Positions 24,654 through 63,928 of a stretch of DNA of 64,000 bases are shown here, in pieces (within the stretch, counting starts at the first letter, position 1; every line of letters starts with the position of its first letter). Position numbers and translations under genes: made by a program. The notes beneath the pieces were generated by a model. It saw only the letters and a list, made by a program, of their open reading frames with translations, made no database searches and was not told the origin of the DNA. Origin of the DNA: Symmetrospora coprosmae (lineage: Eukaryota; Basidiomycota; Cystobasidiomycetes; Symmetrosporaceae); assembly GCA_008802785.1 (NCBI GenBank), contig VUYT01000028.1:203404-267403 (forward strand), read 5' to 3'.

Positions 24654-25409
24654 TCAGAATCGCTTCTGCCTCTTGGCAGCTGCTGCCACCTCTACCGTGT
24701 TTCGTCCGATAGTTGCCTCGGCAATCGTGTAGGACTTGAAAGTGCCTGCACGGTCTTCAAAGTCCTTCAAATTGTCGGCGATCTCCTGCCGGGTTCAGCA
24801 ATATGTGTCAATAGACGACTCAAAGGTGACTTCTGCACACTTTGGCACGTACGAGGACGCAGCTCGCCTTGCTTTTGGCTTCCCCATCTGAGTACGTGCA
24901 GCTAATCTTGGCTGCGCCTGCAGGGAGCAGAGCCGGTTCGCCATTAGCGGCGGCGCCTTGTGAAGGTGCAATGCGGAGAGACGCACCTGAGTTGGCCTCC
25001 GTGTCTGTGCCGGCGGCAACGGCGCCTGGCGTGCGGAAGTCAACAGCTACGCGCTTGCTGTCGACTATGATCATCTCTGGATACCGGATTCCGATTCATC
25101 TCAGCTGTGTACGAGCTAGCTGAAATGGAAAAGTGACCCACGAGTGGCCAACCCTACATCCGCCTGCCACTCAGTGCGGTAGGTCGTCTGGCTGGCGCCA
25201 TAGGTCTGACCGCTAGTCCAGGTCTGCCCGGTGTACTTGACGGTCAAAGTCTCCTCGCTCAGCATATTGCCGAGCTGAACGTCTCCAAAGTCCTTGTACG
25301 CAGGAACGGCAGGGACTTCCACAGCTTCAGCGGCAGCGCCTCGAACGGCCAGGCTGGCGAGAGCTGCGAGGATGGAGAGCTTGAGCATCATGATAGTGGC
25401 AGATGGCAT
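24654..25409 (-). CDS. Small secreted protein 1 (paired-Cys family), effector-like
   Basis: Exons 25142-25409, 24853-25076 and 24654-24785 join in phase to 207 aa. A signal peptide is clear (MMLKLSILAALASLAVRGAA). The mature protein contains VPAVPAYKDFGDVQLGN, MIIVDSKRVAVDFRTPGAV and the block AAKISCTYSDGEAKSKASC, the only two cysteines of the mature chain. An intron (GTACGT donor) follows two codons after the second Cys. The last exon is EIADNLKDFEDRAGTF and a basic tail KRQKRF. The same Cys block and intron position recur in the genes at 35667 and 61059. No known family is recognised. A secreted effector or wall-associated role is inference from size, signal peptide and lineage-specific look. 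Confidence 0.65.
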
Positions 25410-25721
25410 GTTTGTGGGTCTGCTTCGCTGAATGCGGATGAGAGGAGTGGGATGGTATGTGTGTGGCAGGAGGAGACATGCATTGCGCGATTCCGTGCCA
25501 ATTTATACCCAGCCTTGTTGCGGGCGCCAGTCACAGCATTGGGGAAAAGAGGAGTCAGGCCGACGCGGTGCTCTTCAAGGGGTGCCATGCAGGCCGACAG
25601 TCGAGCCTGCCTAGCCAGCTGACCTGCAGTGCCTGCCTCGCTGGCGGACGAGATCCAGAGTGCCGGCAATGCGGCGGCATCCGGCAGTCTGGCATTTAAG
25701 CGGACCGCGCGAGATCCACCC

Positions 25722-26291
25722 TTAGACTAGCATCAGCTGTATGATGTGCACTTTGGGGTCGGGCCAAAAGGGTTGAGTAGTCGGCGTGTGGGCATCCAGC
25801 TGGACAAGGTGATGGATTAAAAGATCTCGGTTGGATTCCGGCGCACTCATCTGGCCTGCCACTTTGCTCGTGTCTTGCGAAACTATGCGCAAGCTCCACA
25901 GGATGGTCAAGGAGCGTTGGTCGCCGGTGGCCTGCGATAACGATGACCTCACAGTGCGACTCGGAGCATCTCGATTGCTGCGGTAGACGCCGCTGCACTT
26001 AGCGAAGAGCTCCAGCTCATCCGGTCTACACGAGCTGCCAACGCAAAGCGACCCAGTTGACCCTTTGATGCGCAGTCAGTTGCGACCGCTCCGGTCTCGC
26101 TTGCCAATGATCGTCGCAAAGACGAAGTGGTCGTCCTGAGCAAGACCTGCCGCTTCCCCGGGCCCGTCCAAGCTCACGGCACCTAATCGACGACCGGGTC
26201 CTATGACATCGACACAGAGACCGCATCTGGAGTGCTTCGAGGTGACAAATATTCCAGGCATCACATCATGTTCAGAGCGTTGCTTTCCCAT
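25722..26291 (-). other. Orphan open frame with one internal TGA; possible degraded gene
   Basis: From ATG 26291 a frame reads HDVMPGIFVTSKHSRCGLCV, GPGEAAGLAQDDHFVFATII and stops at TGA 26076-26078. The same frame then continues open to TAA at 25722 with SCRPDELELFAKCSGVYRSN, TGDQRSLTILWSLRIVSQDT and DLLIHHLVQLDAHTPTTQPF. Both halves look protein-like and share one frame, so the TGA may mark a pseudogene, or a small intron may remove it. No family is recognised. The string RPDEL also occurs in the neighbouring modular family, possibly by chance. Confidence 0.3.
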
Positions 26292-26455
26292 CGATTCCTC
26301 CAGTTGGACACAGCATGGCTCTGTCGAGGCTGTTCATTGCCGAGCTGGCTCGAGGCAGGTCAGCAGAACGAACGCTGCTTGTCTTCCGACTTCACGCCAT
26401 CCATCCGTACAAACTGTCCAGATCGTATCAATATCGCTATCCTCTAGCTCCAGTC

Positions 26456-27508
26456 ATGGCATTTCTGAAAAGTCTTCGGCGATTCCATCGCCGAGAAGCA
26501 TCTCAAGCGGCGCAACGGTCCCCGATTGCTGCACACGCTAGTCATCCTGCTCAATCTGCATCTACCCGGCGCGTGTCTGTCGTCCCAGCCGGAGTGGACA
26601 TAACAAGGATCTACGCCAACAAAGACAATCTGGGCGAAAGGATATCCGCGAAGACCATCGGACATATCTTTCTCGAATACGAGGAACCGTGGTTACTGGA
26701 GACACGCCCATACTCGATCCCGCTGAAATCCTTTGACCGCCCGGACGAGCTGCACACGGCCAGACTCATCTTGCATCCCCTGACTTTCGAAGAATTGCGT
26801 CGCAACTACGAGGTCGTTCCGCGTGTGCGCGATGACCCAAACAGCAAGCCGATACTGAGGAAGCGCAGTACTCCGCGACCCATGTCGGTCAGATCGAATC
26901 CCCGAGGTCGGTTTTCTGTAGCTTACAGCATCCGCACCGGGATGAATCCATTCGGCGATACGTTGAATGCTGATCGATGACCTTGTGCATCACCAGAGCC
27001 TTCACCTGGTCAAAGGGCTGGTGCGACACCCAAGCCTTCTGCAGCACGCTCCCTACAGGCCGTCTCCTTCTCGGAACACAGACACGGTCAACGCGGTGGT
27101 CCGGGAAGATGGTCACGTCCCGGGAGTGCCGTGGGCGGGAATGAACGACCTAGCGATCTCGACGAGTTCGAAATCGTCTCCTTCCACTCGACGGATCCAA
27201 GAAGATCGGGGTCTGGCGGTCCTACCACTTCCGCGAGCAGCTTTTCGCTGTTGCCGGAATTCCCGAACGCGAGCTCGTGGATCGTCCTACAAGATGTCAA
27301 CACGGGGCAAACACTCACAAACCAGATCGCCCACCTGCCGGGTTTCGACGAGTGCCTGAAGAAAAAGTCACTCCAGCATATGAAGTGGCCGGACAAGTTC
27401 AAAGGCACCCGAGTCATGAGACAGCGGCAGGTGGAAAAGCCGTATGTGAAGTATACTTGGAATGGTGAACCTCCGAGCAAGCGGCGCAGGCAAAGCGGGG
27501 GTAGCTGA
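26456..27508 (+). CDS. Unknown modular protein B (tandem paralogue of the gene at 22968)
   Basis: Starts at ATG 26456. The first segment has DITRIYANKDNLGERISAKT, SFDRPDELHTARLILHPLTF and EELRRNYEVVPRVRDDPNSK followed by PILRKR, matching modules of protein A. The frame must change twice. A GTAGCT..CACCAG intron (about 26930-27005) leads to SLHLVKGLVRHPSLLQHAPY, which resembles a stretch of protein A. A second short intron or frameshift (about 27115-27166) leads to FEIVSFHSTDP. The C-terminus, VLQDVNTGQTLTNQIAHLPG then KWPDKFKGTRVMRQRQVEKP and YTWNGEPPSKRRR, parallels the C-terminal domain of protein A. Function unknown. The splice sites are weak, so either unusual introns or decay is possible. 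Confidence 0.5.
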
Positions 27509-27736
27509 GGCGACCAACATATCGCTGCGGTGCCTAGCTTGCAGCTCGATCGGAAGATAGAACACGGACAGCCTCGCTCGTACTTCTGACGAGACCGAAG
27601 CCTCTCCCTATATCTACTGCATTGTATGCTTCCTATAATGAGTAGCCTCGATCGCCCAATCGGCCCACGCAGAAGCATGCATGTTCTCGGGCCAGCCTTT
27701 TGCCAATGCTTCGTCAAATTTGTAGATCCAGGATTC

Positions 27737-29200
27737 ATGGCAGGCAGCTCGCCTCTGCGTAACGGCCTCACTCTGGCTCAGCGCTTTGCATATAAGCCAC
27801 CGGAAAGCAGAGGTGCAGTGTCGAGCCTCGGAGGAAGCGCGTCGAAGCGGCGGAGATTCGACGGCGATCTTCCCGCGCGAAGCACGCGTGCAGCACACAG
27901 CTCGTCTGCGTCTACGTCGCCGTCCACGGATGCGCCTCAAAATCCCGACGCGCATTCGTCAAACGCTGTCAAGGCGCCTGCAACCGGGCCCGCCTCAACC
28001 TCCGAAGTCGGCGCATCATCGGGCGGCGCACTCAGCGCCATCGCAAACGGCAAGAAGCGCGCTGCATCTCCCGGCGCAGACCATCCAAAGACTGTAGTGG
28101 AACCGTCGAGCCTGGTCGCAGAGGCCTTTGCTGCTTCCCTGTCCGACGCGGAGCTGCCGGGCGTCGGAGGCGAGCTCTCGGAGAGACAATTGCTCGAGCT
28201 CGAATGCAATACTCTGCATCCGTCATGGCTGGAATCGTTGCGGAAAGAGTGAGGTCATTGTCTACTGAGGGCGGGAGCCCGCTCTGATGCGAGCGGGTTG
28301 CACAATGTGCAGACTAGTCTCACCGTACTTCCTGAAGCTCAAACGCTTCCTCTGGACCGAAGGCGTCAAGAATCACCTCGAAGCGAGCAAGACCATCTTT
28401 CCGCCGGGTGTGTTACATCTGCACTGCGTGTGCATATCACAATCGCTCAGGCTGAACACGCTCTTGACCCTGCTCTTTCCTCGGTGCAGCCAAGGAGATC
28501 TATGCATGGTCGAATTATACACCTCTGCAGAACGTGAGGGTCGTCATTCTGGGCCAAGACCCATATCACAACGACGGACAAGCGCATGGTGAGCGGAAGG
28601 GATCGCAGCGCTAATTGCTGCTTTCGCTGACCCGGTTGAGCGCAGGGCTATGCTTTTCCGTCAGGAGCAACGTCAAGACACCCCCCTCGCTCAAGAACAT
28701 TTACAAGGAGATCAAGACCGACTTTCCGGACTTTGTCGCGCCGCCTCACGGGTCCGTTGACGCCCAAATCTGCGTTCATCCTGGCCATTCGCACTGACAC
28801 GACGTCTACCCGCAGGTACCTGGCATCTTGGGCTCGACAGGGTGTACTCCTCCTCAACACTTCTCTGACAGTCCGCGCACACGCCGCCAACTCGCACAGC
28901 AAGAAAGGATGGGAGGAGTTTACCGATGCCGTGCTGCGCGTTGTGGATGAGCGGCCTGGACCTGGCGTAGTGTTTCTGGCGTGGGGTCAACCGGCACAGA
29001 AGCGCATGGCAGGGATCGACAAGAAGAAGCACCTCATCCTCTCGAGCGTACATCCATCTCCACTGAGCGCTTCGAGGGGGTTCTTTGGCAATGCGCACTT
29101 CAAAACGGCCAACGAGTGGCTCGCGGATAAGTACGGCGAAGAGGGCAAGATCGACTGGTGCACACTCGAGGCAGACGATACTGCTGCTCGCAAGGAGTAA
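27737..29200 (+). CDS. UNG1: Uracil-DNA glycosylase (family 1)
   Basis: Removes uracil from DNA to start base-excision repair, in nucleus and/or mitochondria. Exons 27737-28248, 28313-28407, 28490-28588, 28646-28751 and 28816-29200 give 398 aa, all in phase. The catalytic water-activating motif [18 protein letters not shown] is near residue 223. It continues [56 protein letters not shown], and the minor-groove loop [13 protein letters not shown] near residue 348. About 170 residues at the N-terminus are Ser/Ala-rich and disordered, with a basic SKRRRF that could be a nuclear signal. In-frame upstream ATGs (from 27626) could make a longer form. Confidence 0.93.
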
Positions 29201-29703
29201 CCGGGCTGCGGTACTCTCGCTGACTCGGAGCAGATGCTTGGGGGCTGGGCTCCAGGTCGGAGGGGATGGCCTGTCAGCGCCTACGAGCCAAGCGATAGCG
29301 GTAGCTTATCGAGCGTATCCCGTAAGCAGATGCTTATGTAGATGATTGCAACGTGGTCATCACACTGGCCGTGCTAGCGCTGCATCTCCGGGCTGGTCTG
29401 AGCGTGAGCGTGAGCGGTTGCCGGTTCTGGACGAGGCTGGACGAAGCCTGAGGCAAGGGGTGGCCACCGTTGGACCTTGGCTACCCTCACCTCTGCTCCG
29501 AACAGGACGACCTGCAGGCACAGCAGGAGCACCATATACCTTCCAGTTCCACCGCAACAACCAACGCAGTCGCCTGCCCGCAGAGCAGCAGCATCGCTCT
29601 GCCGGCCCAGGCTCAGGCTCACGCGGGCGCGCACGCGCATCCACCCTCCTTTGGAGCGAACGACGAGGCCGTGTTCACAGAGATAGCACAGCAGCAACCT
29701 ATC
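29201..29703. other. Upstream region of the CDC4-like gene, partly open in its frame
   Basis: The frame of the following gene stays open upstream to about 29470 with Gln/Ser/Ala/His-rich sequence but no ATG. Either it is 5' UTR or it belongs to a longer N-terminus reached from an upstream exon that I could not place. Otherwise no feature seen. Confidence 0.35.
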
Positions 29704-32700
29704 ATGTCCACAACTCCTCGGGTCGCGTCGCCGCCTTTCTCCAGCCTCAGTCTTGGTCGCGCCAGCATGTCTGGCAAGAGTGGCGGCAGCGACGGCGGCG
29801 ACCTGAACGCCGAGTCCGCACTCAGCACGCCTGCTGGCACCGGCATGGCCATTGGCGCTCCACTCGCGATGCAGGCGTCGCTCTCGTCAAGCGGCTTATC
29901 CTCACTCATTCGCGCCGTGTCACCGCCGACACCGGCACCATCGCCGCAGCCCGAGTCGCGGCTGGGCACGGAATGGATCTCGCCCGCCCTCTCGTCGACG
30001 TCCAACGGTCACGGCGATGCGCACGGACACGGACAGTTCGCAGCACAGCCGTCAACCCCTGTGTCGCCTCCGACAGGCGGTAGTACAGCTGCAGATGATC
30101 TCAGCTTCAATGTACCTCCCGCCGACTTCAACACCCAGTTCATCGACTCGGTCGTAGGCCACTTTCCCCGCCTCTCTGGCCCGGAGCGCAGGAGGCTGTT
30201 CTCCTCCTTGCTGCCCGTGCTGCTCGGCGAGGACCTGCTCCACTTGTCGCAGCTTATCTCACCCTTCCTCCGCCGAGACTTCCTCTCCGAGTTGCCCGCC
30301 GAGATCTCGCTGCACATTCTCGCCTTCATCGATGATCCCAAGGACCTCGTCCGTGCAAGTCGTGTCTCGCGCTCATGGAGAAGCCTCGTATCGGACGAGC
30401 ACACGTGGAAGGTCATGCTGCAGCGATACAGGGGCAGAGGGTGGTGGTCAAGCGGGGAAGCTAGCGCAACACGCCCACCTATCGAGCGGATCCGCCTGTC
30501 GCACCCGGAGGCGCGCTTTGGTGCCATCACATCGCCTCCACCGGCCAGCGCAGGCACACTGCAGCGCCGCAGCTTTGCAGTCCAGCAGCAGCAACAGCCT
30601 TTCTTTGCGCCTGCACTGCCGCCCAGTCAGCCGGTCTTTGGCGGGCCATCAACGAATGCCAATCAGCAGAGGAGGAATACCGTCACTTCGTCGGCGTTCG
30701 GCGATGTAGCGGGCCCTTCAAGTGGTAGGCGCCTGTCGGCCCTGTCTCCTATGGCTCAGCCTTTCCAGTCGAGACGGCCGTCGCTGTCCATCCAGAACGC
30801 TCTCGCTGGGTATGCTGGACCAGTTGCCAGCACGTCCGCTGGTAACAACGCAGGAGCAGTGTTGCAGAGCACTGCAGAAGAAACTGCGGCAGAAGCGGAA
30901 GAGGGACTCGACCAGTTCCAACAGGAGAATCAGACCCCGCTAGCTGAGCGCAGGAGACGGATGAAGGGCAAGGGCCGTCCGCCCCGCCTAGAAGATGAGA
31001 GCGTTGTTCCACCCGCTTCGCTGGTCCCGACCTCAGGCACTGTCGCACACCCGGCTTCCGCCACGGCTGCGGGCTTTGCTTTGCAGGGACTCGGCTTCTC
31101 CGCACGCAGGCAGTCGCATCAGGTTGCGAGATCGCCAAACGCCCCGCTCATCCAGCCCATCTCTGCCGCCCCACGGAACCTGCCGCCGCCGCAAGATCTA
31201 GTGGCGCACTTTGGGTCTCTTAGCCTCGCCCCACCCGCCTCGTCCGCCGCATCTCTGGCAATCGACTCAAGCATTGCCAGTCCGACTGCGCGTTTCTCCT
31301 CCATTTCGTACGCCTCTCCGGTTGTTCCTGCGTTTAGTCCATCTGGACTGTACGCAGGACCCTCATCGCAGGCACATGCGTCACCCTTGCTGTTGTCGCG
31401 CAGAATCATCAGCCCAGTGCCTGTCCCCGCTCGGCAGGCCCCGCGTGAGGAGATGCAGCACCCTGTACTGCCTCTACCCCAACCGTTAGCTGCGCCTCAG
31501 CCCGTGCGCTACGTCACTCGCCGCTCGCAGAACCCGTTCGGCACAGCCTTAACTTCGATTCCATCTGCAGCGGCCGGTTCTGCCACTGGCGCGCCCGCAG
31601 GCCAGCAATACGGCGCCGGGGATGCGTATGCGCAGAACGCCCAACATGCGTCCGCACCTTCGCCATTCTCGTACAAGGCCCAATTCAAGCGTGCCTACCT
31701 GACCGAGTCGAATTGGCTCAAGGGGCCCGGCCGGCTCCTGTCTAGACAGACTTCGGCGGATGACGGCGTCGTGACGAGTCTCGGTTTCGACAACGACTGG
31801 ATCGTGGTCGGCATGGCAACGAACCAGATCCACGTCTTTGATGCACGTACAGGCGAGTATGTGCGCCAGCTCGAAGGGCACACCTTGGGTGTGTGGTGCC
31901 TGGTCCTGGTCAGCAAGGGCGGCGAGCGTCTCGACAAGGACGGCAAGCCTGTCAACAGGCCTGCGGAGACAGCAGTACCGCAGCGGACTGGCTGGGACTC
32001 GGAGGAGGACGATGGAGCAGAGGCCGTCGCACATGCTTACGGTGTGAGCACGGGCAGGGAGACTTCCGAGTCGGCCAGTAGCGAGGACGACGAGGCGGAG
32101 GCGCAGCCAGCGACAACGCCTCAGTACGCCAAATACGAGGCGCAGAGATCAGACGGGATGCCAAGGTGCAGATCTGCGTCTGCGCGACCGCCCGATATCG
32201 AGCGCTTTTTCCAGGAGGCTTCGCCCATTCCCGGCCGGGCGGTTCCTAGCGCAGCGCACAGCCGACTCTCGCCGAAGTCAGCCAACCCCGGTGGTAGTGC
32301 GCCATCTTTCCATCGCGCTTCATCCACACCGGTCGTTTCGCCAGAGCATGCCAATGGTGGCGGCAGCGCTAGCAAGCCAGGTCGAAGTGGACCGTCAGGC
32401 GGCCGTCCGCGAAGTCAGCGCCGCCCTTCCTCCTTTAGCGGTATCCCGTCAACGGAGCAGCAGAGACAGAGCTCGGGCTCCGGCTTTGTTTTCGGTGACT
32501 CCAGTCGCATTTCGCAGCAGCAGGCTGCCGCGTGCGGGACCGCTTCTGGCTGGGGTCAGCGAGGCGCCATTGCAGTGACTGGCGGATGCGACCGGGACGT
32601 GCGCGTCTGGGACGTCGAGACTGGGTGGGTGCACTGCATTTCCTCCGACTTCATCACATGGACACCGGCAGCTAACCTGAATCTCCCATGTCATACCGCA

Positions 32701-33586
32701 GCAAATGCCTTCACGTGCTCCGAGGACACGTCTCGACCGTTCGCTGTCTCAAGGTCCTCGACGGGCGACCCATTGCCGTCTCCGGCTCGCGCGATGCCAC
32801 GCTTCGCGTCTGGGACATTGAGCAGGGCGTCCAGCTCCGCCTCCTGGCCGGCCACCAGCACAGCGTGCGCTGCATCGAGATCAGCGGAAACAAGGTCGTC
32901 AGCGGCAGCTATGATACGACTTGCAGGGTGCGGTTGGGCATTACCTGCCATTCTCGTTGTCTGACACTCACTGAAAGCTCGTGTTTCTCGCAGATCTGGG
33001 ACGTTGATACAGGAGAATGCCTCCATGTGCTCAATGGCCATCAGCATCAGATCTACGCTGTCGCCTTTGACGGGATCAGAGTCGCGAGTGGATCGCTCGA
33101 CTCGACTGTCCGCATCTGGTCGGCAAAGACTGGGTGGGTGGCGATTACACTTCCGACTGTCTACCGCGAGGCTGACACGGGCACTGCTCTCCCTCTCGCA
33201 GAGAATGCCTGGCGCTTCTGCAGGGTCACACCTCCCTCGTGGGCCAGCTCCAGCTCACCGACTCTGTCCTCGTGACTGGCGGCTCGGACGGGCGCGTCAT
33301 CGTCTTCTCGCTCTCGACCTTTGAGTGCCTGCACCGGCTGTGCGCACACGACAATTCCGTGACGTGCCTGCAGTTCAACGACCGCTTCATGGTCACGGGC
33401 GGCAACGACGGCAAGGTCAAGCTGTGGGATCGGCCCACGGGCAAGCTCATCCGCGAGCTTGCCGAGCCGTGCGAGGCCGTCTGGCGCGTCACGTTCCGGG
33501 AGGACAAGTGCGTCCTCCTTTGCAAGCGCAATGGCAGGACCATCATGGACGTCAGGACGTTTGCACCCTTCGAGGATGAGCTCTGA
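29704..33586 (+). CDS. CDC4: Cdc4/Fbw7-type F-box and WD40 substrate receptor of SCF ubiquitin ligase
   Basis: Binds phosphorylated substrates through a WD40 propeller and recruits Skp1 through an F-box for ubiquitination. Exons 29704-32624, 32702-32927, 32994-33133 and 33202-33586 give 1,223 aa. The F-box reads FLSELPAEISLHILAFIDDP followed by RVSRSWRSLVSDEHTWK near residue 200. A ~400-residue Pro/Ser/Gln-rich linker precedes WD1 (VVTSLGFDNDWIVVGMATNQ, GHTLGVWCLVLV). An acidic, Ser-rich insert of about 200 residues separates WD1 from WD2 (AVTGGCDRDVRVWDVETGKC). Five further repeats include AVSGSRDATLRVWDIE, VVSGSYDTTCRIWDVD, VASGSLDSTVRIWSAK, VTGGSDGRVIVF and VTGGNDGKVKLWD. The start at 29704 is the first in-frame ATG; an upstream exon is possible. 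Confidence 0.88.
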
Positions 33587-35666: not shown

Positions 35667-36462
35667 ATGCACGCCGGAGCTGTGCTGCCGTTAGTCCTTG
35701 GTCTCGCTGCCAACTTGGTTCGCGCATACAAGGTAGAGATCCGCAAGTTTCCGGACCTGGATGTATACGACGGACTGGAACAACCGGCCGGGCTCCCCTT
35801 TAACTGGCTTGTGCCGGCGTACCCAGACCGGGGCTGGGTCCCCAATGCCAATAACAGACCAGAAGACGTGCATCACTACTACAAGCTCCAACTCAAGCAG
35901 GGAGATACGACCTTAAAACGTGAGTAGGGCTCAAGCGATGGATGCCTGGGCTGTAACCGACTGATAGCCCCCTTCCGCTGATGCGCAGAGTATATCTCCC
36001 TGCAGCCAGCTGCCATAACCTGCTCTTTCAGGGTGGACAAGGGGATGTGCATGCGACCGGTACGTCTCGGCCCGTCGATTCTTGCCATGCAGAAATCGTT
36101 TCAGGGTCCACGCGCATCATTGACCTACCCATACGCACCGTCACTGGTCGTGTCACATTGACAAACGCTGCTTCGTTAACGTATCTTCCTTGCCCATTGA
36201 AAAGGCGAGGTAGCGTGCCATTACTACGTCGACAAGGTCGATGACCAGGCGGAAACATACGACCCTTCGCGATCCAGTTGCGAAATCGTAAGCGGATCCC
36301 GCGACATGAGCGGCTATCGAAAGACGGCTGCGGCGTACTCACTAACTGAACGATTGCCTCCCGTAGAAGGTGAACGATCACCAATGGATCGAAGCATCCG
36401 AAACGGTCAATCTGGAGGGAATTGAGATAGAAGTACAGGCTTCCGCCCGGCGCAAGCGCTGA
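35667..36462 (+). CDS. Small secreted protein 2 (paired-Cys family), effector-like
   Basis: Exons 35667-35919, 35989-36059, 36210-36287 and 36367-36462 give 165 aa. Signal peptide: MHAGAVLPLVLGLAANLVRA. The mature N-terminus YKVEIRKFPDLDVYDGL resembles RKVQLYKLPPARDF of the gene at 61059. The block AAITCSFRVDKGMC matches the paired-Cys block of the two related genes and is again followed closely by an intron. Two more Cys appear in VACHYYVDKVDDQ and SRSSCEI. The last exon is KVNDHQWIEASETVNLEGIE with a basic end (SARRKR). The third intron acceptor (GGCGAG at 36209) is poor, but frame and protein look right. No known domain; function unknown. Confidence 0.65.
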
Positions 36463-45785: not shown

Positions 45786-48700
45786 TCACTCCTCCATCAG
45801 CTGAGGCGCGGATGTCGCAGCTGCAGCGGCGGCCGCCTGCTCTAGCTCTGCCACCTCTGCGTTTCTGACCCTGGCCATAAAGTGTGAGACTCTGGCAGCG
45901 GCACAAGAAAATGTGTTGTCAGTGCAGTCCTAGAGCGGTGCTGCTCGCCTGACTAGGGCATGCTCGATCAAAATGACGCCTCGGCGAGCGAGCGACTCTC
46001 ACCTTTGCAGGTCCAGTCCGCCGGCTCCAGCTCCTTTCCCTGCGGACGACGAGCCTCCCTCCGCGTTCGCAGAGACATGCACACTCGCCGAATTTGCCGC
46101 TGCCGGTTCATCGCTTTCGAGCGCAACGATGAGGTTCCCAAGCATGTTTTCAATCTCCTCGTCGGCCGAGACGCCCGTGCAGAGCTTGACGAGTCTGCGC
46201 GCCTCGAGCTCCAGGCCGCCCGCGGCCGTGCGCTCGCGCGTGTGAGCGATCCGCGCGCGGAGCAGGGCCAGCACGCGCGTGTACCAGATCTCCATCCGGC
46301 GCAGCTGAGCGAGCGTGACTTGCGTAGCCGCAGGTCCAGGTCCAGGTGCGCCTCCGCCTGTTATCTGCGATGATGGTGGTGAAGCGGCCGCTGGAAGCGG
46401 TGGGTCCGCTTCGATGGTCATGGGCATGCTCACTGCAGGGAGAGCGCCGAGCGTGCTGCCTGCACCGCGGTACTCGAACGCCGCGGCATGTATCCGCTTT
46501 TGGTCCTCTCCTAGCTCGTCCTCTCCATCTCCTGTTCCCTCTCCGCTTTGTGCATTGGCTTGCTTCCCTGGCCGGGCTTTCCCCCCTGTGCTTCCGTCAA
46601 GGCCTTTCCCCGTGGCCGCTGCACTGGCGTCCGGGGGGTACTCCGGCTCGCCATCGACGCCCGTCCGCCCCGTCCAGTCAAAGCGATCCTCTTCCTCGAT
46701 CGCCTGCTCCAAGTTCCGTATCCGCCACCGCGTCGCTTCCAGTGCGCGCACCTCCTCGCGCAAGCCGATGAGCGCACTCCGCCGTTCCGCAAGCTCGCGC
46801 GTCGCAGCGTGCAGCCTCTCCCGCGTCCGCTGGAGTGCCTCTCCGCGTGCTGCGAGCTCGGCGGAGAAGTCGGCACTGAGCGACGTCAGCAGCGTACCCA
46901 GTGTCGCGAGGAGGTCGCGCGACTGCATTTCTCTTGTAGCGCCGTCAGCCGGACCCGGCGCCGACGCCGACGAGGGCCCGGCAACCGCCAAAGAAGAAGA
47001 ATTGCCGCTTGGCTGTAGTTGCAGCTGCTCGACGGCCAGCTCCGCAGGCGTGGGTACCGTCAACCCTTCCTCGAGGAAGCCAAAGTCGCCTGGTCGGAGG
47101 CCGAGGTTGTTGGGCAGATTCGCATTGGCCCCACTCTCAAGGAGCATCCGGACAATGGGCCGGCTTCCGACGCGCGCGGCAATATTAAGCGCCGTGTCAC
47201 CGTTCGCGTCCTTGGCGTCGAGCAGGTCATTGAGCGCCGTCCGCCCAGTTTCTGGTAGCGCGGGCCCAGTCCCAGTGCCAGCGGGGGCAGGTCCCGAAGC
47301 CGACGCTGATCTAGACGCAGCGGCGGCGGCGGCGGCGACTCTGCTCGTGTGGCTCTCACTGCTGGCGCTGCGCCGCGCTGCAATCGACAGCGGCGCTCCC
47401 GTCGCCGCCGGCCCCGCAGCCGACGCGGCGTGCGCATGCTCCGCGAGCCAATGCAGGACCGTCTCCATGTAGTGCCTCGCCGCGGCCGAGCGCCCGCGGA
47501 TCCCAGCGACGAGCGCAATGTGGTGCAGGACGGAGCGGAGCTGGTCGTCCACCGCAAACATGCTGCCGCTGAGGAGGTCGAGCAGGCCGGGCACCAGAGG
47601 AGAAGCGGGTGCGAACGACTCTGCGTCGAAATTGTTGGTCACGAGCACGGCGCGCATCAGCGGGGTCTCGCCCGATGCATTGCCCCGGTCGGGCAAAGCG
47701 CCCGCGCCGAGTAACGCCTGCACGGTCGAGAGGCGGCCGAGCGCGGCAGCCCAGTGCAGTGCCGTATGCTGCTGCTCATCGATGGGCGCGTTGGCGTCCA
47801 AACCCGCTGGGAAGCCCGACACAACGGCTGAAGGGTCCATCTCGCCGCTTGCAGGAGCGCGGCCGCTGGATCCTGTATCTGCTTCTACTTCGGCGTCCGC
47901 GTCGGCGTCCGCGCCTGCCCCCGCTGGTGCAGCACCGGCTGTAGGGCCGGCGGGCATGTCGGCATCGATGATGAACAGCGACATGAGTGCCTCTCGGTGC
48001 TCTGCGCTGGTTGGTCCAGCTACGTCGCTATGCTTGGTCGCACGGTGTATCTGCTGCAGCTGCACGGGGACTGTGGATGTTGATGCATCGCTCGTATGCG
48101 GGAGGCCATTGCCTTCTGCCAGTGGCGCGGAAGGCCCACTAGCGCTCCCCTTTGGCGGGGCAAGACCGTCCACTCTTGCTCGCTTGTTACTGCTCCCCTG
48201 CCCTGATGAGGTCTCTCCAGCTGATTCGGGGCCGCCGTTGCTTGCGGCAGTTCCGGACGTCGACGTCTCGGCAGGCACTGGGACCGGCGCCGACTCCGCA
48301 GCTTGCCGGGGCCGCTTCCGGCTATTTACGTTCGTGGTTGTGCTGGATCTCTTGCCCTTGATGTCCTCCTTCACTGTAGCAGGGGGCCGCTTCTGCCCGT
48401 TGGCCTTGGTCGGCGCTAGAGGGCCTCCGTTCTGGTGCGGAGGCTGCTTCTGGGCGCTCTGCAGCGGCTGAGCTGCTGCTGATGATGACGGCGGTGCTGA
48501 CCGCTGCGATGCTACCGGGGGCGATGGCGACTGCGACTGCGACTGCGGTTGCGGACCGCTGGCCTGGAGCGATGGCGTCGCTGCGGGGGTGAAGACTGCG
48601 GCCGTATCGCCGACGGCGGCCGGTGGGCTGTACTCAAAGAGCGGGCGGACGAGCTCGAACACGCCGTGCTGCCCCGCCATCTTCTCCGCGTCGTGTGCGG

Positions 48701-49514
48701 GCATCCACACGCCCTCGCACCGTCCATGCGCCGGCCCCAGGCTCTCGTGCTCCACGCCCGAGTCTGGGTGCGCCACGTCCCGCTCGAGCGTCTTTGCCCG
48801 CTGCGCTTTCGTGACGCCCGCGACCTTGAGGAGCTGGCTCGCGTTGACCCACCCGTCGGCGCGGCGGCGCATGACGCTGTTCCCGCGGCGGACGAGGAGC
48901 TCGTACACGGGCGTGTTGGCGTAGACGGCCTGCGGGCGGACGCGTGAGAGCGCGGAGAAGGCAGAGCTACTCGTCAGCAAGAGTCCAAGTAGCCCAGATG
49001 GAAGGGGAAGACCGGTCCGACGACTCACGAGCAGGACCTGGGGCTTGCCAGCGCCGGCTGCACCGGTGTCAGTTCCGGATGGAGTCGCGGCTGGGGTTGC
49101 GCCGGCCAGTGCTGCTTTCCCGGCCCTCGTACTCTTTGCTGTGGTTGATGACGATGTCGCTACTCTTGACGATGCAGGCTCCTCCGAGGGGTTGGATGAT
49201 GCGGACGAGTGTGAGCGGGACCTTGTCTGCTGCTGCTGCTCCCCGTGCTGCTGCTGCCCACGAGGAGCAACGGCGTCTGTCCCGCGACCGCCAGAAGGCG
49301 CACCCTGGCCGCTCCCAGTCGTCACTCTTCCGTCTCGCGCTGCGTGGATTCCATCCTTCGCCTTCTCCTCGTTGCCCTCCATTGCGCTGCCCTGTTCCTG
49401 CATGTCTTCCGGCCCTCCTCGTGCATCCGCTGATGAGGCTGCTCCTCCTCCCTGCTGCTGCTGCTGCTTCTCACCGCCCGTCCCTGCCATACCACCCTTG
49501 GACGAATCTGCCAT
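45786..49514 (-). CDS. MBP1: MBF/SBF-type cell-cycle transcription factor (KilA-N/APSES plus ankyrin repeats)
   Basis: DNA-binding subunit of the G1/S regulator MBF. Exons 49029-49514, 46003-48929 and 45786-45891 give 1,172 aa. After a Gln/Ser-rich tail the APSES domain reads AVYANTPVYELLVRRGNSVM, DGWVNASQLLKVAGVTKAQR, GVWMPAHDAEKMAGQHGVFE and LVRPLFEYSP. Ankyrin repeats follow an acidic/Ala-rich linker: EQQHTALHWAAALGRLSTVQ, GNASGETPLMRAVLVTNNFD, DANGDTALNIAARVGSRPIV. A coiled coil (LREEVRALEATRWRIRNLEQ) and a C-terminal helical region, where Swi6 would bind, end the protein. The first intron (48930-49028) is 99 nt and stop-free, so retention keeps frame. An ACGCGT site lies upstream. Confidence 0.88.
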
Positions 49515-49957
49515 TGCAGTGTCCTTCCTCTCCTCTTGCACCTCTGCTGCTTTGCTGTGGCTCTCCTTCCTCGTTTGTCTCCCTTCCTCTCCTCTCCCCG
49601 CCGTGTTTTGGCCTGCAGTTGTGCGCGCGCCGTACTGTACCGTGGCCCGTGTGGCACGCGGGGGACGTGGTGGCTGCGCGCGGACAATGAGCGCTGAGCT
49701 CCGAATCCAAGCTGGATCGTGGCAGGGTGCTCTCTCTCTCTCTCTCTGCTCTGCGCAGGTCTGCTGCTCTCGTTCCCCTCCCTGTTCCTCTGTGTCGCTG
49801 GCGGTGGGAGAAGAGCAGAGAGGGAGAGGGAAGAGCCGCATCCGCATCCGCATGAGGCAGGCAGGGTGGATGATGGAGGGGGACACCACCGTCGTCGTCA
49901 TCACCATCATCACAGACAGATACATCACACAGATATACCAACATATACACGCTGCAA

Positions 49958-49963
49958 ACGCGT
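49958..49963. promoter_or_regulatory. MCB box ACGCGT (MBF site)
   Basis: ACGCGT is the consensus bound by MBF. It lies 444 bp upstream of the MBF-subunit start codon and about 210 bp upstream of MON1. Autoregulation of the MBF gene is the simplest reading; a single hexamer can also occur by chance. Confidence 0.35.
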
Positions 49964-49980
49964 CCATCGCTGACGCTCAC

Positions 49981-50170: not shown

Positions 50171-53131
50171 ATGAGTGCTCATCCTCATGTCGCTGCTGTA
50201 CGGCCATCCCTGCTCAGCGCGGCCACAGGAAAGGGCAGCAGCACGTCAACGCACACGACCTCGGCCGTGACGCAGGCAACAGCAACAGCAACAGCAACAG
50301 CAACGTCAACGTCCACGTCCACGTCATCTTCCCCGTCTGCATCCCCGTCCAGACGCGCTGCCCCGTCGTACTCCCGCTCCTACTCGCAATCGCGCTCAGG
50401 TCTCAGTCTCGCAGCAGTCTCCGCCCTTCACACCAAGCAGTTCCAGGAGGGAGGACGGCTTGCAACGCCGCCTGGTAGCATCAGTCACAGAGACGATGAT
50501 GACGACGACACCGAACGCAGCAGCTTGCTGAGGATCAAGGCCCGCGACTTTGCTGCCGCGAGGAGCGCGTCCCCGGGTGACCGTGCGCACACCCCTGAGG
50601 GTGATCTGCTGCGCAACGACAAGGAGCAAGCGAGCGACAATGACAGCGAAGTGGAGGACGAGGATATGGCCAGCTTTGACAGCCGCCAGCTCGTAGCTCG
50701 ACCCTCATCACTGCACGCGACAGACCCGCGCGTCATGCTCCGAGAGCAGCTAAAGAGGAGCGAGAGTGCCCGCGGCGGCCTGCATCGCGGGTCGAGCGCG
50801 ACACACGGTCAGGGTAGCCACCTGGGTGCGTGCGTCGTCGTACCACGCTCATGCAAGGCGGGCCCCTTCGTTGATTGATGTGCTCCGTGATCTTCATATG
50901 CAGCCAGCGACAAGTCCGAGGCGCAACACGATCCACCCCACACACGCTCGCACGGTCAAGAAGCCCCGTCTGCCGCCGCCGCCGCACAGGGACAGACTTC
51001 GCATCGCAGCCCAACAGTCGAGACTGCCGTCCGGCCGCGCCGCTACATTGTCCTGACGTCAGCTGGAAAGCCTGTCTATGCAAGGTGAGCTGCGCCTCTC
51101 GGCTATCTGGCACGACGAACGCCCTTAACCCGACTCCCTGTCTCCTCGAATGTTCCACCGCCGCAGTAGTCGCACCAGTCGCACCAGCCTGGAGGCTGCG
51201 TCAGATCCGACACACCCGCACGCCGAGAGCGAGGGAGAGTCAGAAGAGGCCCTCACGAGCCTCGTCGGCGTCATCCAGGCCATCGTCTCGCTCTACGCCA
51301 TGGAGGAAGAAGGGTGCGACCGGATCCGATACATAGACGCCGGACAGCTGCACATTGCCTTCCTCCTGAAGGCTCCCCTGTACCTCGTGGCCATCTCGGA
51401 CTTGGCCGAGCCCGAGGCCGTGGTGCGTCGCCTTGCCCCTGGCCCTCTCCCTGCCCATCTGCCTCTACCTCTCCCGATTGCCGCTCGTGGCTGACGCGTC
51501 TCCGTGCTTGGGCTGTATTCACCGGGTGTCTCGTCTCGTCTACGCGCGGAGAGCAGCTCCGCACGCACCTCGACTACCTGTACCTCCAGATCCTGAGCGT
51601 CGTCTCGCACGCCCAGCTGCACGCCATCTTTGCCAAGCGCGCCAACTTTGACCTTCGCCGCCTGCTCGAAGGGACAGACGGCATCATGGACAGCCTCGTC
51701 GAGCGCCTCCAGTGGGATTTCGAGTGCACCCACGGCGCGCTCCGCGTCCTGCCCCTCGACATTGCGCTGCGGGATGAGTGTGCGCAGGCCCTGCGACCGC
51801 CGACAGCGGAGATGAAGCGGAACCCGGTGAGTGGGTGCGCGGCTCTCTTGCGCGAGAGTGTGCCGCGAGCGCGCGTGTGCGATTGCTGAACAGTGCTGGC
51901 GCACCTGGACTGGTCTGCTCGTGGCCAACGTCCCTAAACCAGGACATTCTCTATGCCCTCCTCCTCTCGCACACGACGCTCATCACGCTCCTCCGGCCCA
52001 AATCGCACTCGATCCACCCATCGGACCTGCAGATTCTCCTCAACACCCTCTCCGCCTCGTCCTCCCTGCGAATGCCAAACTCCGAGTCCTGGCTTCCCAT
52101 CTGCCTGCCCAAGTTCAACGCCAAAGGTTTCGTATACGCCTGCATCAGCTACTTTGAGCCGGCTTCTGCCACCGGCTCGGAGGACGGTGCGGCACAAGGT
52201 CGCCAGCTTGGGCTCGGGACGGTGCTCATCACGACAGACCGAGAAGGCTTCTTCGATATGAAGGCATGGAAGGACGCCATTGCCGAGGTGGGTTGCTGTT
52301 CTGTGGCCTGCGTGCGCTACGCTGGTTCATGCCTGTGGCAGGTGCTGATAGCGTGCGCGTACGTCGCGGGCCATCTTTCCTGCTTGCAATCGGTTCTTGC
52401 TTCCGGCTGCGTTCATTCAACTCAGAAGCTGCATGCGCGTTCTCCGACATCGGCCGGGGCTTCAACGTCGCTTTACGCACGACTGGCCGCCTCTCTCCCT
52501 GTCTCTGCCTCCTCCGCTCCTGACCACAGCACCGACCTCACACTGCCGCTGCTTCGTTCGCCCATCGGAGAAACAGCGAAAGCAGCGACAGCCATGCCGC
52601 CTATCCCGGCGCTGCGCCATTACGTGTACAAGTCGCGCACGTACGTTCAGATCACGCACCCGCCATTCACGGGCGCGTACGCCAGCAGTCTCGCAGCGCG
52701 GCGGCGACTCGCGGGCCTGTACCAGCGCGTGCATGCGTCGCTGCACGAGACCGGCGCGGGGGGGATTGGGACTGGCACTGGGCCAGGGGCAGGGGCAGCA
52801 GGTGGGGTTGGAAGAAGCAGCGGGCCGATGCGGCTGGTGTATGCCGTCACTGCGGACGAGGCTGTCCTGGGCATGGTGCGTGCTCTTGTAATTCCTTCTC
52901 TTGCGGTTTTCCGCCGGGCCCGCCGGGCAAGGCTGAATGAGCAAAGGGTGGTTGTGCTCCTCCCCTCCGTGTTCGGTGTTCGGGGCGCAGGTCACGACAT
53001 CGTACGAGCTCTACCTCGCATTCCCGCCGCTGGTTCCGAAAAAGACGGCGACGGACTCGGCGCACGCACTGGCGCGATGGGTCAAGAAGAATGAGAGCAC
53101 GCTGTTCCTCACTAGTGCGCCGCACTTCTAG
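50171..53131 (+). CDS. MON1: Mon1 subunit of the Mon1-Ccz1 Rab7/Ypt7 exchange factor
   Basis: Mon1 with Ccz1 activates Ypt7/Rab7 on late endosomes, vacuoles and autophagosomes. Exons 50171-50825, 50904-51084, 51167-51422, 51557-51826, 51943-52287, 52426-52875 and 52991-53131 give 765 aa. After ~230 disordered residues with Thr/Ser and poly-Asp tracts come the three longin-like domains: RRYIVLTSAGKPVYA, SLVGVIQAIVSLYAMEEEGC, LRTHLDYLYLQILSVVSHAQ and FDLRRLLEGTDGIMDSLVER. Next are DILYALLLSHTTLITLLRPK, SESWLPICLPKFNAKGFVYA, HYVYKSRTYVQITHPPF and VTTSYELYLAFPPLVPKKTA. The acceptor of exon 6 (52425) is the least certain. A (CAACAG)n-type tract at 50276-50306 encodes an Ala-Thr repeat. Confidence 0.9.
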
Positions 53132-54705: not shown

Positions 54706-54796
54706 GTTGGAAGAAGAGGGAGAGGCGGCGACGCATACATGTACCTACATACAGCTCTTGCCTTCGCTCAATCTCCGCCATCTATCTACTGCAGCC

Positions 54797-56782: not shown

Positions 56783-57418
56783 AGGCACCACACGTGGGTC
56801 ATCACAATGCATCGGAGCATCCCGTGCGCTTCGCAGAGAGCCGAACCTTCCAAACGCCTCGAACAGCGGTAAAGCAGCTCCTCCGCCCGACCGGCACACT
56901 CCTTCGCTCCGCCGGCACAAGCTCAATCGCACCGAACAGCAAAGACAGACACCTCCTCTGCTCCTCTCCTCCCCTGTTCCCCATTTACCTGTCATTATAT
57001 TCCCTTGCCGTTCCCCATCAGTAGCAATCAGCAGTGCCAGCAGAAGTCCGCACAAACTAGTCCGCAATCTCCCTCTCTCCTCATCTCATCTTCCGTCAAC
57101 TCTCCCTCGTGTAGCCAATAGTTACGATACGCTCGCGAGCAAGATTTGGACACACTCGCCTGCCCTGTTGAGATTCCCTGGGCTTCTCAGGATCCTGGGC
57201 GCAAGCGTCTGATCGCAAAGTCTGCCTCATCTGTCTAGAGAGCTATCATTTGCAGCCGCACGACTCGGCTGCAAGCGAAGACTCCTCGTGGCTAGGTATG
57301 TGCAGCATTGCGGCTTGGCGTATGGCTTTGCACAGCGCTCAACAAGTCGCACTCCGTGTAATAGCCTTTGTGCTGCAACGGAAACGGTTGCGAGACGCAT
57401 GCTCTATCGACAACATAT
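56783..57418. other. Convergent intergenic region between the two FCP1-like genes
   Basis: 636 bp, CT-rich around 56950-57110. Open frames continue from the plus-strand gene through here only if its last intron is ignored. No independent gene is supported. Confidence 0.4.
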
Positions 57419-59356
57419 TCAGTAGAGTGGCCTCTCTAGTGGAGGTGAAGGTTCTGCTTTTACGCGATCAGCAGGTCCGTCCTTCTTCGCAGATTGGCTG
57501 CAGCTGCTCCCGCTCGTCCTGCCAACGCTGGTGTGTGCTGTGGACGGCCTGGCAAAAGAGGAATGGCCGCTAGAATCCGTTGATGAACGAAGGCGCCCGC
57601 TGCGGTCGCAAGACGTGGAAGCGCTATCGGCCGCCGCAGAGTGTGTGTTGCGGTGCTCGTTGATCTGGGCAAGAGGAATGAGACAGGATCAGCCCTGTGT
57701 ACCGGAGGGGAAAGAGTCTGTTGAGTGCTGGGAGGTAAACTCACGACCACCAACTCCAGCCCATTCTTCCAGCGACTGTCAAATGAAGGCGTGACGGGTA
57801 TGCCGGCTTTCTCCAGTGCCGCTCGCCCCGCCTGCACTAGGCTCTCACGCCGATCGTCTTCTTGGTACCCCTGGTTCCTCAGGGCGGCCGACACGTTGTC
57901 CGTTCCGCTGAGCGCCTCGAGGACTCCCACGAGCCGGAGGAGCTCGTCATCGCTCGCATCCGCACTGCCGTACTCCCAGGGACGCAGGACTAGGTGGTTA
58001 AACGGCTGTAAGACAGCCTTGTCGGCGGTGTCGTCGATGAGGAGCGTATCACGCTGCGACCAGTGGCTGGAGCCATGTTCACGGTCGTGCGACGGCCACG
58101 CGAGGGACGACCAGACTTTGTCGAGGTCTTTCGTGACTGCCACTTTCTGGTGGAACTCATCCGGCGTCAGGCCAAGCGAGCTCCGGTCCCACGCGGCGTG
58201 CAGCAAGGGCGAGGAGCTGTCCAGGCCCATTCCGACTAGCAACGACGCGACGCTTTCCCGCTGCGCAGAGGACCAAATCTGTAGAAGTCAGCAAGCCCGG
58301 CACAGCGCGCCTATCAGCACGAGAAAGGTTCGCGCGAGCGGGAGCAAGCAAGTTCGTTTTCTGACGCTCGTGAGCGCGGAGAGTGCGCACCATGACTGCA
58401 AAGCGCCTGTCGCCCGCTTCATCGCTCTCAAAGATGTAGCGGAGGAAGCTCGAGAGGAAAGGTCGTGGCCGAGCAGTAGTAGCCCCGAGCTTTGTGCGTT
58501 TCTTGCGCGCGCAGAGCGTCCCGTTGAGGTCCAGTATGAGCAGCTTGGGTTTCGTGTGGCCCTGGCTACGTAATCGACGCTGGTTCTGCGAGTGAGACGA
58601 AGCGAGCGCATTCCCACTGCCAGCGTCTGCACTCGTGGATGGCGGGCTGCGGTCGAGCGACAGGGACAGGGCAGCCAGTTTCTCAGTGAGCAGGGGTGCC
58701 GACGCCAGGCGCAGGTAGTCGTCACTCGGCTTCATGTTCGGATGCCAGCTCGACGACGGGCTGCGCGAGGTAGTCACTGCGCTGGTAGAGGGCGAGGAAG
58801 CAGGCGATACCGACCGCGAGCGGATCTGCGCCTGCTCGCGCCTGCGCTGTGGCGTGAGGTACGCTGAAGAGGGCGCTGACGCAAGGGGTGTATCTTTGAC
58901 AGAAGCAGACGAAGCTGCACCTTGACTGCAAGGGAGTGTCGTCTTTCGGCGCCGCGCAGGAGGTGTCTCCCCAATGATCGCAGCTACGGTAGCGGGTGCG
59001 AAGGCGGGTGCATCTGCCGACACAGCTCCAAAGGGTCCCGAAGCGTTGGCTTGAGCAGTCGAGCGTGCGTGATACGGGCCTGACCCAGCCGCTGCCTGTT
59101 CGTTTGTGCCTTCTGGCAGCCCGGTCCGCAATGAACGGCCAGGAGACGCGCCTATGGCTGACGCTGGCTGAAGCTTGATGGTGCGCCTGAACTGATGCTG
59201 CGCCTTGACTCTGACGTTTCCCTGTGCCTCTTCTGCCGGATGCGCCCTCTCTGCCAATCCTGCCTGCTTGTCGCCATCGCCTTGCGCTCTTTGGACGACG
59301 CAATTGCAACAACGCCCGGAGGATCCGGACGAGGGCGACGCGGTCACTGTCGTCAT
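57419..59356 (-). CDS. FCP1/NIF-like HAD-superfamily protein, catalytic motif DLNGT (paralogue)
   Basis: Exons 58391-59356, 57745-58278 and 57419-57664 give 581 aa. The domain begins KPKLLILDLNGTLCARKK near residue 270, then RPFLSSFLRYIFESDEAGDR, IWSSAQRESVASLLVG, VTKDLDKVWSSLAWP, DTLLIDDTADKAVLQPFNHL and a C-terminal PVTPSFDSRWKNG. Ser-rich tails flank it on both sides. DLNGT keeps the first Asp and Thr but has Asn for the second Asp, which normally acts as general acid/base. The intron interrupts right after Val-Met before IWSS, exactly as in the convergent paralogue. The start is the first in-frame ATG; an upstream exon remains possible. Confidence 0.72.
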
Positions 59357-59733
59357 TGCCGCAGGCTGCAGCACACTGCCAGTGGCATTGCGCGAGAGTC
59401 CCTTTGGCGCGCAGAGTCTCGAGGATGATGACAGATTGGCAAGAGGATGCAAAGCCAGCTGTGAACGCTTACTGACTGCGTTGTGATGAGAAGAAGGAGG
59501 AGGAGACGTAGTTGTCGACGTCGACGTCTCGGCGCACCCACCCTCGCAGATCTTGCCACAGGACCGACTGCATCCTCGTAGGACATCGCTTCAACAAAAC
59601 GAGTACATTATCCGCTTCGATTCCTTCGCTAAAGCACAGTTGCGTGTCGTGCTCAGCGTTCTGCGGCCGTTGAAGATCGGTCCCTCGAGCTGGACTCTGC
59701 CTCGGGCCAGTTTCACGGCAGCCAGGACACACC
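59357..59733. other. Divergent promoter region
   Basis: 377 bp between the FCP1-like start and the dioxygenase start. Contains GACGTCGACGTC near 59517, a short palindromic CG-rich element. The FCP1-like frame remains open upstream to about 59452 without an ATG. Confidence 0.35.
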
Positions 59734-60599
59734 ATGGCCAAGAGCAAAAGCAAGAAGGAGCCTGCATCCGCTGCTTCTGCTGCGCACTACGCGTCGACAG
59801 AAGCGTCTCCTGCTGCCATTCCCTGGCCGCCTCTGCCCACCCCGTCGCAGCGCTCCTCGCCTCTCGAGCTCGATAGCGTCCTTCCCTCCCAGATCCTCCT
59901 CCTGCACGGCTTCTTCCCAGCGAAAGCATGCGCGAACTGGCTCGCCTTCTTGTCTGATGCAAAGCACATTCCTTTAGAGCCGTCGCCGGCTGCCAAGCGG
60001 GGCGAAGCCGCACGCACGAATCACCGCTTCTCTGTGATGGATCCGGACTTTGCAGAGGCGCTTTGGGCACAGACGGGCCTGAAAGACGCTGTGCTAGATC
60101 ACAGAAGCGAGGACATCTTCGAGTCGTCGGAAAAGACGGGTGCGAGGCCCGTAGGTCTTAATCCGAATATCCGGGTAAGGACATTCGCTCGGCGTGCAAT
60201 GCAATAATGCGCATTTGCATGCTGACAGCAGGTTCACGGTCTCAGATATACCGCTATGAGCCCGGACAGGCTTTCGCGCCGCACTACGACGACACGGTCC
60301 GCGTTGGCATGCGCCATACGGAATGGACGCTCCTGGTCTACCTAAGCGGTGAAGAAGACGGCGTGCAGGGCGGGGAGACGGCCTTCTATCCCTGCGGCGT
60401 TGCGCCTCCGTCCGATAGCTCGTCCGGCAAGGGCAGGAAGGAGCGCAAGATCCGCGTGGGCGAGGAGGACGTTGTCGTCCAGCTCAGGAAAGGAATGGCT
60501 CTTCTTCACCGGCACGGGAGAGAATGCCTGCTGCACGAAGGACGACCCGTCTACAAGGGCGTCAAATGGGTGCTCAGGTCGGACCTCGTCCTAGCATAG
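59734..60599 (+). CDS. 2-oxoglutarate/Fe(II)-dependent dioxygenase (prolyl-4-hydroxylase-like)
   Basis: Exons 59734-60174 and 60246-60599 give 264 aa. Fe(II) ligands are visible as HYDD in EPGQAFAPHYDDTVRVG and a distal His in LLHEGRPVYKGVKWVLRSDL, with the nearby Lys/Arg that would hold 2-oxoglutarate. YLSGEEDGVQGGETAFYPC is the usual strand before the jelly-roll core ends. The domain is like prolyl 4-hydroxylase alpha subunits; with no signal peptide and a Lys/Ser-rich start it is probably cytosolic or nuclear. The substrate is unknown. The phase 0 intron has a GTAAGG donor, and the acceptor before IYRYE keeps the conserved Tyr. Confidence 0.88.
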
Positions 60600-61058
60600 G
60601 GCGAGGTACCGCGCGACAATCATACACGCCAACTCGCGCTGCCTTTCGGCCATCAGTGTAGACTGTCAAGGCCGAAATACGAGCATATCTGCAATGCCTG
60701 CTGAGCAGCTGCCGATCTGTGACGTTCGACTTACTACAAGCGCCCTCCAAGGACCAGACTCCGTAGGCTCCGCTGAGCTGGACCACTGGCACTGGCAAGG
60801 AAAGCGGCGCGGAGCGCCGGCGGAGCGCCGTATGTACGGACGCTATCCGCCTGCTTCCCTTTCTGCCGTGCGAAAGTCTGCACCATACGTAACTGCTCCG
60901 GCTGGCTGGAAATGCCTTCAAAGGATAGGATACGAGATCATTGAAAAGCGCAGGTCGACCCTTGCGCATCGGACTCCTTCGATCTCACAACATCTCAACT
61001 GCACACTCACCACGCCACATTACCTCCCACAAACACGTCACATCTCATCAAACACACG
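60600..61058. other. Intergenic, promoter of secreted protein 3
   Basis: 459 bp without a supported gene. Before the next start codon there is a CA-rich leader (61010-61056), common in fungal 5' UTRs. Confidence 0.4.
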
Positions 61059-61864
61059 ATGCAGCCCACCAAGCGCGGCAGTCTGGTACCCGCCGGCCTT
61101 GCCTTGTCTTGCGCCCTCTCCGTCGATGTCGTCAGCGCAAGGAAAGTTCAGCTCTACAAACTGCCACCTGCCAGGGACTTCCCAGCTATCCTGAGCAAGC
61201 TACCTTCGGACATGAACAAGGACTGGTTGAGTGTCAACTACGACAGCGCAGCTTGGCAAGTGGACGAGACCATAGACAAGTGGGACCTGTTTTGCTGGCC
61301 TAGCCCTGAGGGGAATTTTGGTGAGCGATACTACCGTACGATTACCTGAGCGGTTGAGTCCAGGGCTCCAGGCGGTCCGATGCTTCACGTCCACCTCCAT
61401 GCCTGTCTCAGCGGAGGCTGACGTAGCCCATACGTTGGACTTCCGCAGTGCTCAAACTCAACGCAGCTGGTATGAATGTCAACTTCTGGAACGAAAGTAG
61501 GCGTAGGGGCGCAGCAAAGAATCTCCACTCAGCATGCACTATACTGACGCGCCACGTCCGTCCTTATTTGCGCTCTATCGCCCGCTTCGACCTTGGGAAG
61601 ACGGATCATGGATGGCCAAGATCGAGTGTCGCTTCAAGGGCTCGGATCACACGAAAGCCGACTGCGGCATGGTGCGTTTCTGTCGGAGGGCGCTGCACAA
61701 CGTGCCATCGGCTTGTGGACCAACGCTGACTCTCAGATCGCCAGAGCCTGGACGATACATCGGACGGAGCCTCCGGCTACGGCGAAGCGGTGGAGAAGGC
61801 AGACGTGAGCCTCACTCCGTTCGAGGTTGAGGCCGAGGATCTCTCGACCAACGATACGGATTAG
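61059..61864 (+). CDS. Small secreted protein 3 (paired-Cys family), effector-like
   Basis: Exons 61059-61320, 61449-61496, 61601-61671 and 61745-61864 give 166 aa. Signal peptide: SLVPAGLALSCALSVDVVSA. The mature chain starts RKVQLYKLPPARDF, has LSVNYDSAAWQVDETIDKWD, one Cys in WDLFCWPSPEG, then LKLNAAGMNVNFWNEN and the paired-Cys block AKIECRFKGSDHTKADC. An intron follows two codons after the second Cys, as in the gene at 24654. The acidic tail is SLTPFEVEAEDLSTNDTD. The third exon acceptor (GGGAAG, 61600) is non-ideal but is the only one found that keeps phase. No known family. Confidence 0.65.
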
Positions 61865-63889: not shown

Positions 63890-63922
<33 letters not shown>

Positions 63923-63928
63923 ACCACC

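Follow-up and report, generated by a model that had tools for sequence, protein, structure and literature searches.

Among the small secreted proteins of fungi there are unnamed orphan families whose members carry a signal peptide, stand in tandem arrays and have no relatives in the databases. The MAX effectors of ascomycetes are secreted, extremely diverged proteins with few conserved cysteines; they are shorter than the proteins described here and have a solved beta-sandwich fold. For the Mig1 effector family of the smut fungi Ustilago and Sporisorium, four conserved cysteines, two disulfides and very low identity are reported (PMC12503489), and further papers describe clustered and dispersed copies (PMC4081819) and deal with the mig gene promoters (PMC6988420). 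Here, we describe a protein family of the basidiomycete Symmetrospora coprosmae whose members are small and probably secreted. It was recognized from three genes in a window of 64,000 nucleotides, the whole stretch of DNA that was analysed (contig VUYT01000028.1 of assembly GCA_008802785.1, positions 203,404 to 267,403 of the forward strand), and comprises at least 14 genes in a genome of 20 Mb.

Mig1 is the closest parallel to this family. Both consist of small proteins, secreted in Mig1 and probably secreted here, with conserved cysteines and very low identity between members. Both also have clustered and dispersed copies; in the present family nine genes form two tandem arrays and five stand singly. 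However, Mig1, which was compared by description only, has four conserved cysteines and the present family two; for this reason the family is not filed under Mig1 and membership is not claimed. In addition, Mig1 is known to be induced in a host. With the MAX effectors it shares probable secretion, extreme sequence divergence and few conserved cysteines, but the MAX fold is solved, and for our family no sequence match was found in the PDB. The orphan families resemble it in signal peptide, tandem arrays and lack of database relatives, whereas its core motif, and the intron that follows the cysteine block at a fixed place, are its own.

Homology of the three genes in the window

The three genes are located at 24654-25409 (gene 1, minus strand), 35667-36462 (gene 2, plus strand) and 61059-61864 (gene 3, plus strand) of the window. 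A first-pass annotation had described each of them as encoding a signal peptide and a two-cysteine block followed by an intron, and these features were found again: a hydrophobic, signal-peptide-like N-terminus by simple hydropathy, and a two-cysteine block with a phase-0 intron behind it. The lengths of 165-207 amino acids given there were not borne out, the present models having 184, 161 and 166. A common mature N-terminus, noted for two of the genes, proved to be family-wide and is present in gene 1, too (EAVEVPAVP). In substance the earlier observation holds, with one block probably to be reassigned and the family enlarged from three to at least 14 genes.

Judged by profile comparison, genes 1, 2 and 3 are true homologues and members of one family. 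Ten paralogues from elsewhere in the genome, trimmed by their 26 N-terminal residues, made up the profile, and 5000 shuffled sequences served as control. This mature profile found gene 1 with an expectation value (E) of 5.6e-12, gene 2 with 2e-7 and gene 3 with 5.3e-25, the best of the shuffles reaching 0.023; four alternative models of gene 2 gave E values between 1.3e-7 and 1.4e-5. In full-length runs, for which the shuffles were given an artificial signal peptide, the left-out genes 1 to 3 scored 6.5e-17, 1.8e-10 and 1.3e-28, and single shuffles came down to 2e-4. When 1000 reading frames of the window, each of at least 40 residues, were put to the mature profile with all three genes left out, only pieces of genes 1-3 fell below an E of 1, so that no fourth family member was detected in the window by this test.

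Direct pairwise identity among the three genes is only 17-20%, as one might expect if their likeness were due to chance or to the signal peptides alone. The probable misassignment of the first block proposed for gene 2 would also suit this explanation, as would block-only profile scores of that gene within the range of single shuffles (see below). Nevertheless, we regard it as very improbable and have rejected it, since the N-terminally trimmed profile made from paralogues outside the window ranks all three genes far beyond the 5000 shuffles and a splice donor stands at a constant offset from the block in 13 of 14 genes. With such a low pairwise identity, the homology becomes visible via the other paralogues. 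Searching the genome with single proteins (exon 1), gene 3 matched C15:145026-145253 with 53% identity (E 5.8e-16), and the paralogue on C5 matched gene 2 (E 3.4e-4) and gene 3 (E 1.5e-4).

Gene 1 consists of four exons (25409-25142, 25076-24987, 24917-24853 and 24785-24654, minus strand), separated by introns at 25141-25077, 24986-24918 and 24852-24786, and encodes 184 amino acids. Its splice model is independently supported by P0001, a continuous protein of 184 amino acids from the database search, which aligns over 184 of 184 residues with 89% identity and spans all three junctions without a gap. P0001 is encoded on a contig of 1204 bases with the source label lgn; we infer that it represents a transcript, from a strain or species that is related, and an intronless gene copy is a possible alternative. 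In the same database, exon 1 is covered by reading frames that continue unspliced for gene 1 (P0003), gene 2 (P0004) and the paralogue c15e (P0002). The model of gene 3 (61059-61320, 61449-61496, 61601-61671 and 61745-61864, plus strand; four exons, 166 amino acids) was chosen by hand, its middle intron using an AAG acceptor.

The cysteine block of gene 2

An intron two to three codons behind the second cysteine had been proposed for all three genes. For genes 1 and 3 the distance from this residue to the donor is exactly two codons, the blocks being AAKISCTYSDGEAKSKASCVL in exon 3 of gene 1 (24853-24917, minus strand) and AKIECRFKGSDHTKADC in exon 3 of gene 3 (61603-61671, plus strand). In the case of gene 2, the block named at that time, AAITCSFRVDKGMC (36015-36059, plus strand), is probably not homologous to those of genes 1 and 3. 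Depending on the acceptor used, it lies one exon upstream of a second cysteine pair or out of frame. This downstream pair, VACHYYVDKVDDQAETYDPSRSSCEI, is contained in exon 3 (36207-36287, plus strand) and is our preferred candidate for the family block. The corresponding gene model, also chosen by hand, has the exons 35667-35919, 36006-36059, 36205-36287 and 36367-36462 (plus strand) and encodes about 161 amino acids; start and frame of exon 2 and the acceptor of exon 3 are uncertain.

The preference is based on architecture. Behind VACHYYVDKVDDQAETYDPSRSSCEI, a donor follows exactly two codons past the second cysteine, and an intron of 79 nucleotides then leads to a family-like tail. The upstream pair ends three codons short of a good donor (36060), and its direct route to the tail is an intron of 307 nucleotides; both the offset of three instead of two codons and the long intron needed speak against it. 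Profiles of block and tail do not decide between the two, which is why the choice rests on the gene structure: with gene 2 left out, the downstream pair scored 15.3 bits and the upstream pair 13.8 (one shuffle 18.7), and when genes 1 and 3 were omitted instead, the values were 9.5 and 12.1 bits, respectively (one shuffle 18.5). Over the whole protein, with only gene 2 left out, the best of the models combined an exon 2 in the frame of the upstream pair with the downstream block, at 46.8 bits compared to 39.2 bits for the preferred model, but requires GAG as an acceptor and a middle intron in phase 0. In view of this score, the upstream stretch may be coding, as an extra cysteine pair of gene 2.

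Conserved architecture

The shared features are a signal-peptide-like N-terminus, a core WLxxxYDxxxW that is exact in part of the members, a block of the form IxCxY...C and the intron after the second cysteine of this block, which is the most telling of them. In an alignment of 11 members, the core has an invariant proline, leucine, tyrosine and tryptophan, and the second block cysteine is invariant as well. This alignment has just two conserved cysteine columns, one invariant and one occupied in 10 of 11 members; both block cysteines are found in 12 of the 13 spliced models. The core motif is exact in nine of 13, including gene 3, and deviates in gene 1, gene 2, c15b and c15i.

The fixed donor was read from the DNA directly. 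The donor-like hexamer GTRNGB starts exactly six bases past the codon of the second block cysteine in 13 of 14 genes, counting the downstream pair for gene 2, and in the background it occurs 93 times in 16881 positions (1 in 182). Fixed intron and core motif provide a handle for finding relatives whose identity has fallen to about 20%. They also illustrate how homology may be anchored in the structure of genes when secreted proteins evolve fast.

By simple hydropathy, a hydrophobic N-terminus is present in all 13 models and a strong membrane span further downstream in none. The charge of the tails varies sharply, being basic in gene 1 (24654-24680), gene 2 (36430-36462) and the C5 copy and acidic in gene 3 (61820-61864) and c15c; a long basic C-terminal tail is found in c15e (L027:2300-2968, minus strand).

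Family size and genomic organization

At least 14 family genes were detected by single-protein and pattern searches of the genome, a lower bound. Beside the three genes of the window there is a tandem array of six genes on C15 (about 140.9-147.9 kb), a second one of three genes on C15 (about 58.4-62.0 kb), a single paralogue on C5 near 92.5 kb and another one on C20 near 4 kb (L057), about 4 kb from the contig start. Thus, nine genes are tandem copies, all outside the window, and five are single. The earlier proposal of an expanded secreted family is supported and was an understatement.

Spliced models were made for 13 genes. Their median pairwise identity is 21% and the minimum 13%; the closest pair, gene 3 and a C15 copy, shares 44%. 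The gene left out, c15g (L028:2332-3000), has a family-like exon 1, block and tail, and its last intron is without a standard donor. Possibly c15g is degenerate or spliced in another way.

Search for relatives in databases

For the three window proteins, Pfam returned no family at E values up to 10. With 11 of the 13 models nothing convincing was found in Pfam (best E 0.032) or NCBIfam (best E 0.027), each best value coming from one member, and the 11-member profile had no convincing match in the PDB (best E 0.9). A protein search with the 11-member alignment gave four matches among a capped list of 7997 scored candidates; by their near identity these matches belong to this species or to one very close to it. 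As a control, an exon of the MON1-type gene of the window yielded seven matches among 7991 scored candidates, just three of them named fungal proteins (Atractiella, Schizopora, Cantharellus). The database thus holds some basidiomycetes, but as the candidate lists were capped and the control returned so few named proteins, the breadth of the family is not settled. Lineage-specificity, the other half of the earlier proposal, agrees with these searches, and a restriction of the family to its lineage is likely, but not proven. Viral contigs scanned with P0001 and exon 1 of gene 3 contained no relatives. Among other loci read, an acetyl-CoA synthetase exon had its closest match in PDB 5ifi, from Cryptococcus neoformans, in keeping with a basidiomycete source; a phenylalanine ammonia-lyase locus was read as well but left unused, and a search for 5.8S rRNA found none. 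In a literature search of titles and abstract openings, made without the organism name, no paper on the family was found. In the databases searched the family is new, but its kind is common in fungi. We take the finding to be genuine and of an ordinary sort: the proteins, small and probably secreted, make up a new orphan family of fungi.

Candidate function

As a whole, the observations are probably best explained if the three genes are dispersed members of a single expanded family, whose proteins, at least 14 in number, are small, probably secreted and with a proposed role in extracellular binding, a reading that we hold with moderate confidence. Each protein is predicted to enter the secretory pathway and would then be released. 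A small domain would fold, in which the two block cysteines are predicted to form one disulfide. The family would have grown by local duplication and dispersal, and its copies would have diverged to the present median identity with core and cysteine pair kept and other parts and tails altered. The likeliest job would be the binding of host or microbial targets outside the cell, different copies possibly having different targets.

Several points weigh against this explanation. Gene 1 matches single paralogues weakly (best E 0.025) and departs from the core motif, and c15e lacks the first block cysteine. Structure models of P0001, computed alone and with an alignment of five rows, reached a predicted local distance difference test score (pLDDT) of 36.0 and 35.1 and gave no usable fold. 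The intron phases are 1, 1 and 0 in 12 of 13 models (c15e is without the middle intron), but they were imposed in searching the models of c15i and c20t, the models of gene 2 and gene 3 were picked by hand from several possible ones, and model enumeration demanded an intron in phase 0 at most four codons away from the block; the model-free fixed donor is therefore stronger evidence than the phases. A shared promoter motif was not clearly above random: the best 7- and 8-mers did not beat the best of 20 random sets, and the best 6-mer, CCTTTC (9e-5, compared to 3e-4 for the best of 20 random sets), is treated as unproven. Furthermore, those neighbours of the window genes that match Pfam families resemble ordinary cellular genes and not an effector cluster. 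They encode a Mak16-type protein (18590-19696), an F-box/WD40 protein (29470-32961), a large ankyrin-repeat protein (45999-49967) and a MON1-type longin (51778-53091).

The single position of the window members amid such genes would also fit secreted proteins with a self-directed role in cell wall, matrix, aggregation or mating surface, whose divergence reflects relaxed constraint after duplication. The gap-free conservation of gene 1 at 89% identity in its relative P0001 points in the same direction, as it suggests a stable role for this copy. However, a Pfam scan of 11 members returned none of the wall, adhesin or hydrophobin families at E values up to 1, and a strong C-terminal membrane or anchor-like hydrophobic stretch was seen in none of the 13 models. 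We consider a self-directed role possible, though rather unlikely.

Small secreted proteins with a cysteine pair that diverge after tandem duplication would also suit an antimicrobial or competitor-directed activity against bacteria or other fungi. Many antimicrobial proteins are cationic, whereas the isoelectric point of the mature protein is acidic in 12 of the 13 models, and no worthwhile match to an antimicrobial or killer family was obtained (one member against a frog peptide model, E 0.52). Such an activity seems distinctly unlikely for the family.

As to the binding of targets outside the cell, the family is probably secreted, probably has one disulfide, has grown in tandem and by dispersal and is extremely diverged. 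In this it resembles effector-like families, and an effector-like role is a plausible candidate, which we would put somewhat short of an even chance. A narrower version, to be taken as tentative and on the unlikely side, would be an undescribed, lineage-restricted and host-directed secreted family with a single-disulfide fold of its own, diversified in tandem and dispersed copies, in which drifted members keep a fixed intron at the disulfide block. If the proteins were host-directed, a defined set of at least 14 candidate effectors would be available in one 20 Mb genome.

Contig ends

C20 bears family members toward both ends: about 4 kb separate one of them from the contig start, and about 2 kb separate gene 3 from the opposite end. 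A subtelomeric expansion was considered and dropped, as the poly-C end of the window is without TTAGGG TTAGGG and the first 2499 bases of C20 are without TTAGGG. This end of C20 looks like an assembly break and not like a telomere. The last bases of window and C20, about 111 in number (63890-64000), are a run of poly-C, which cuts short a gene that we take, from its motifs, to resemble PRPP synthetase.

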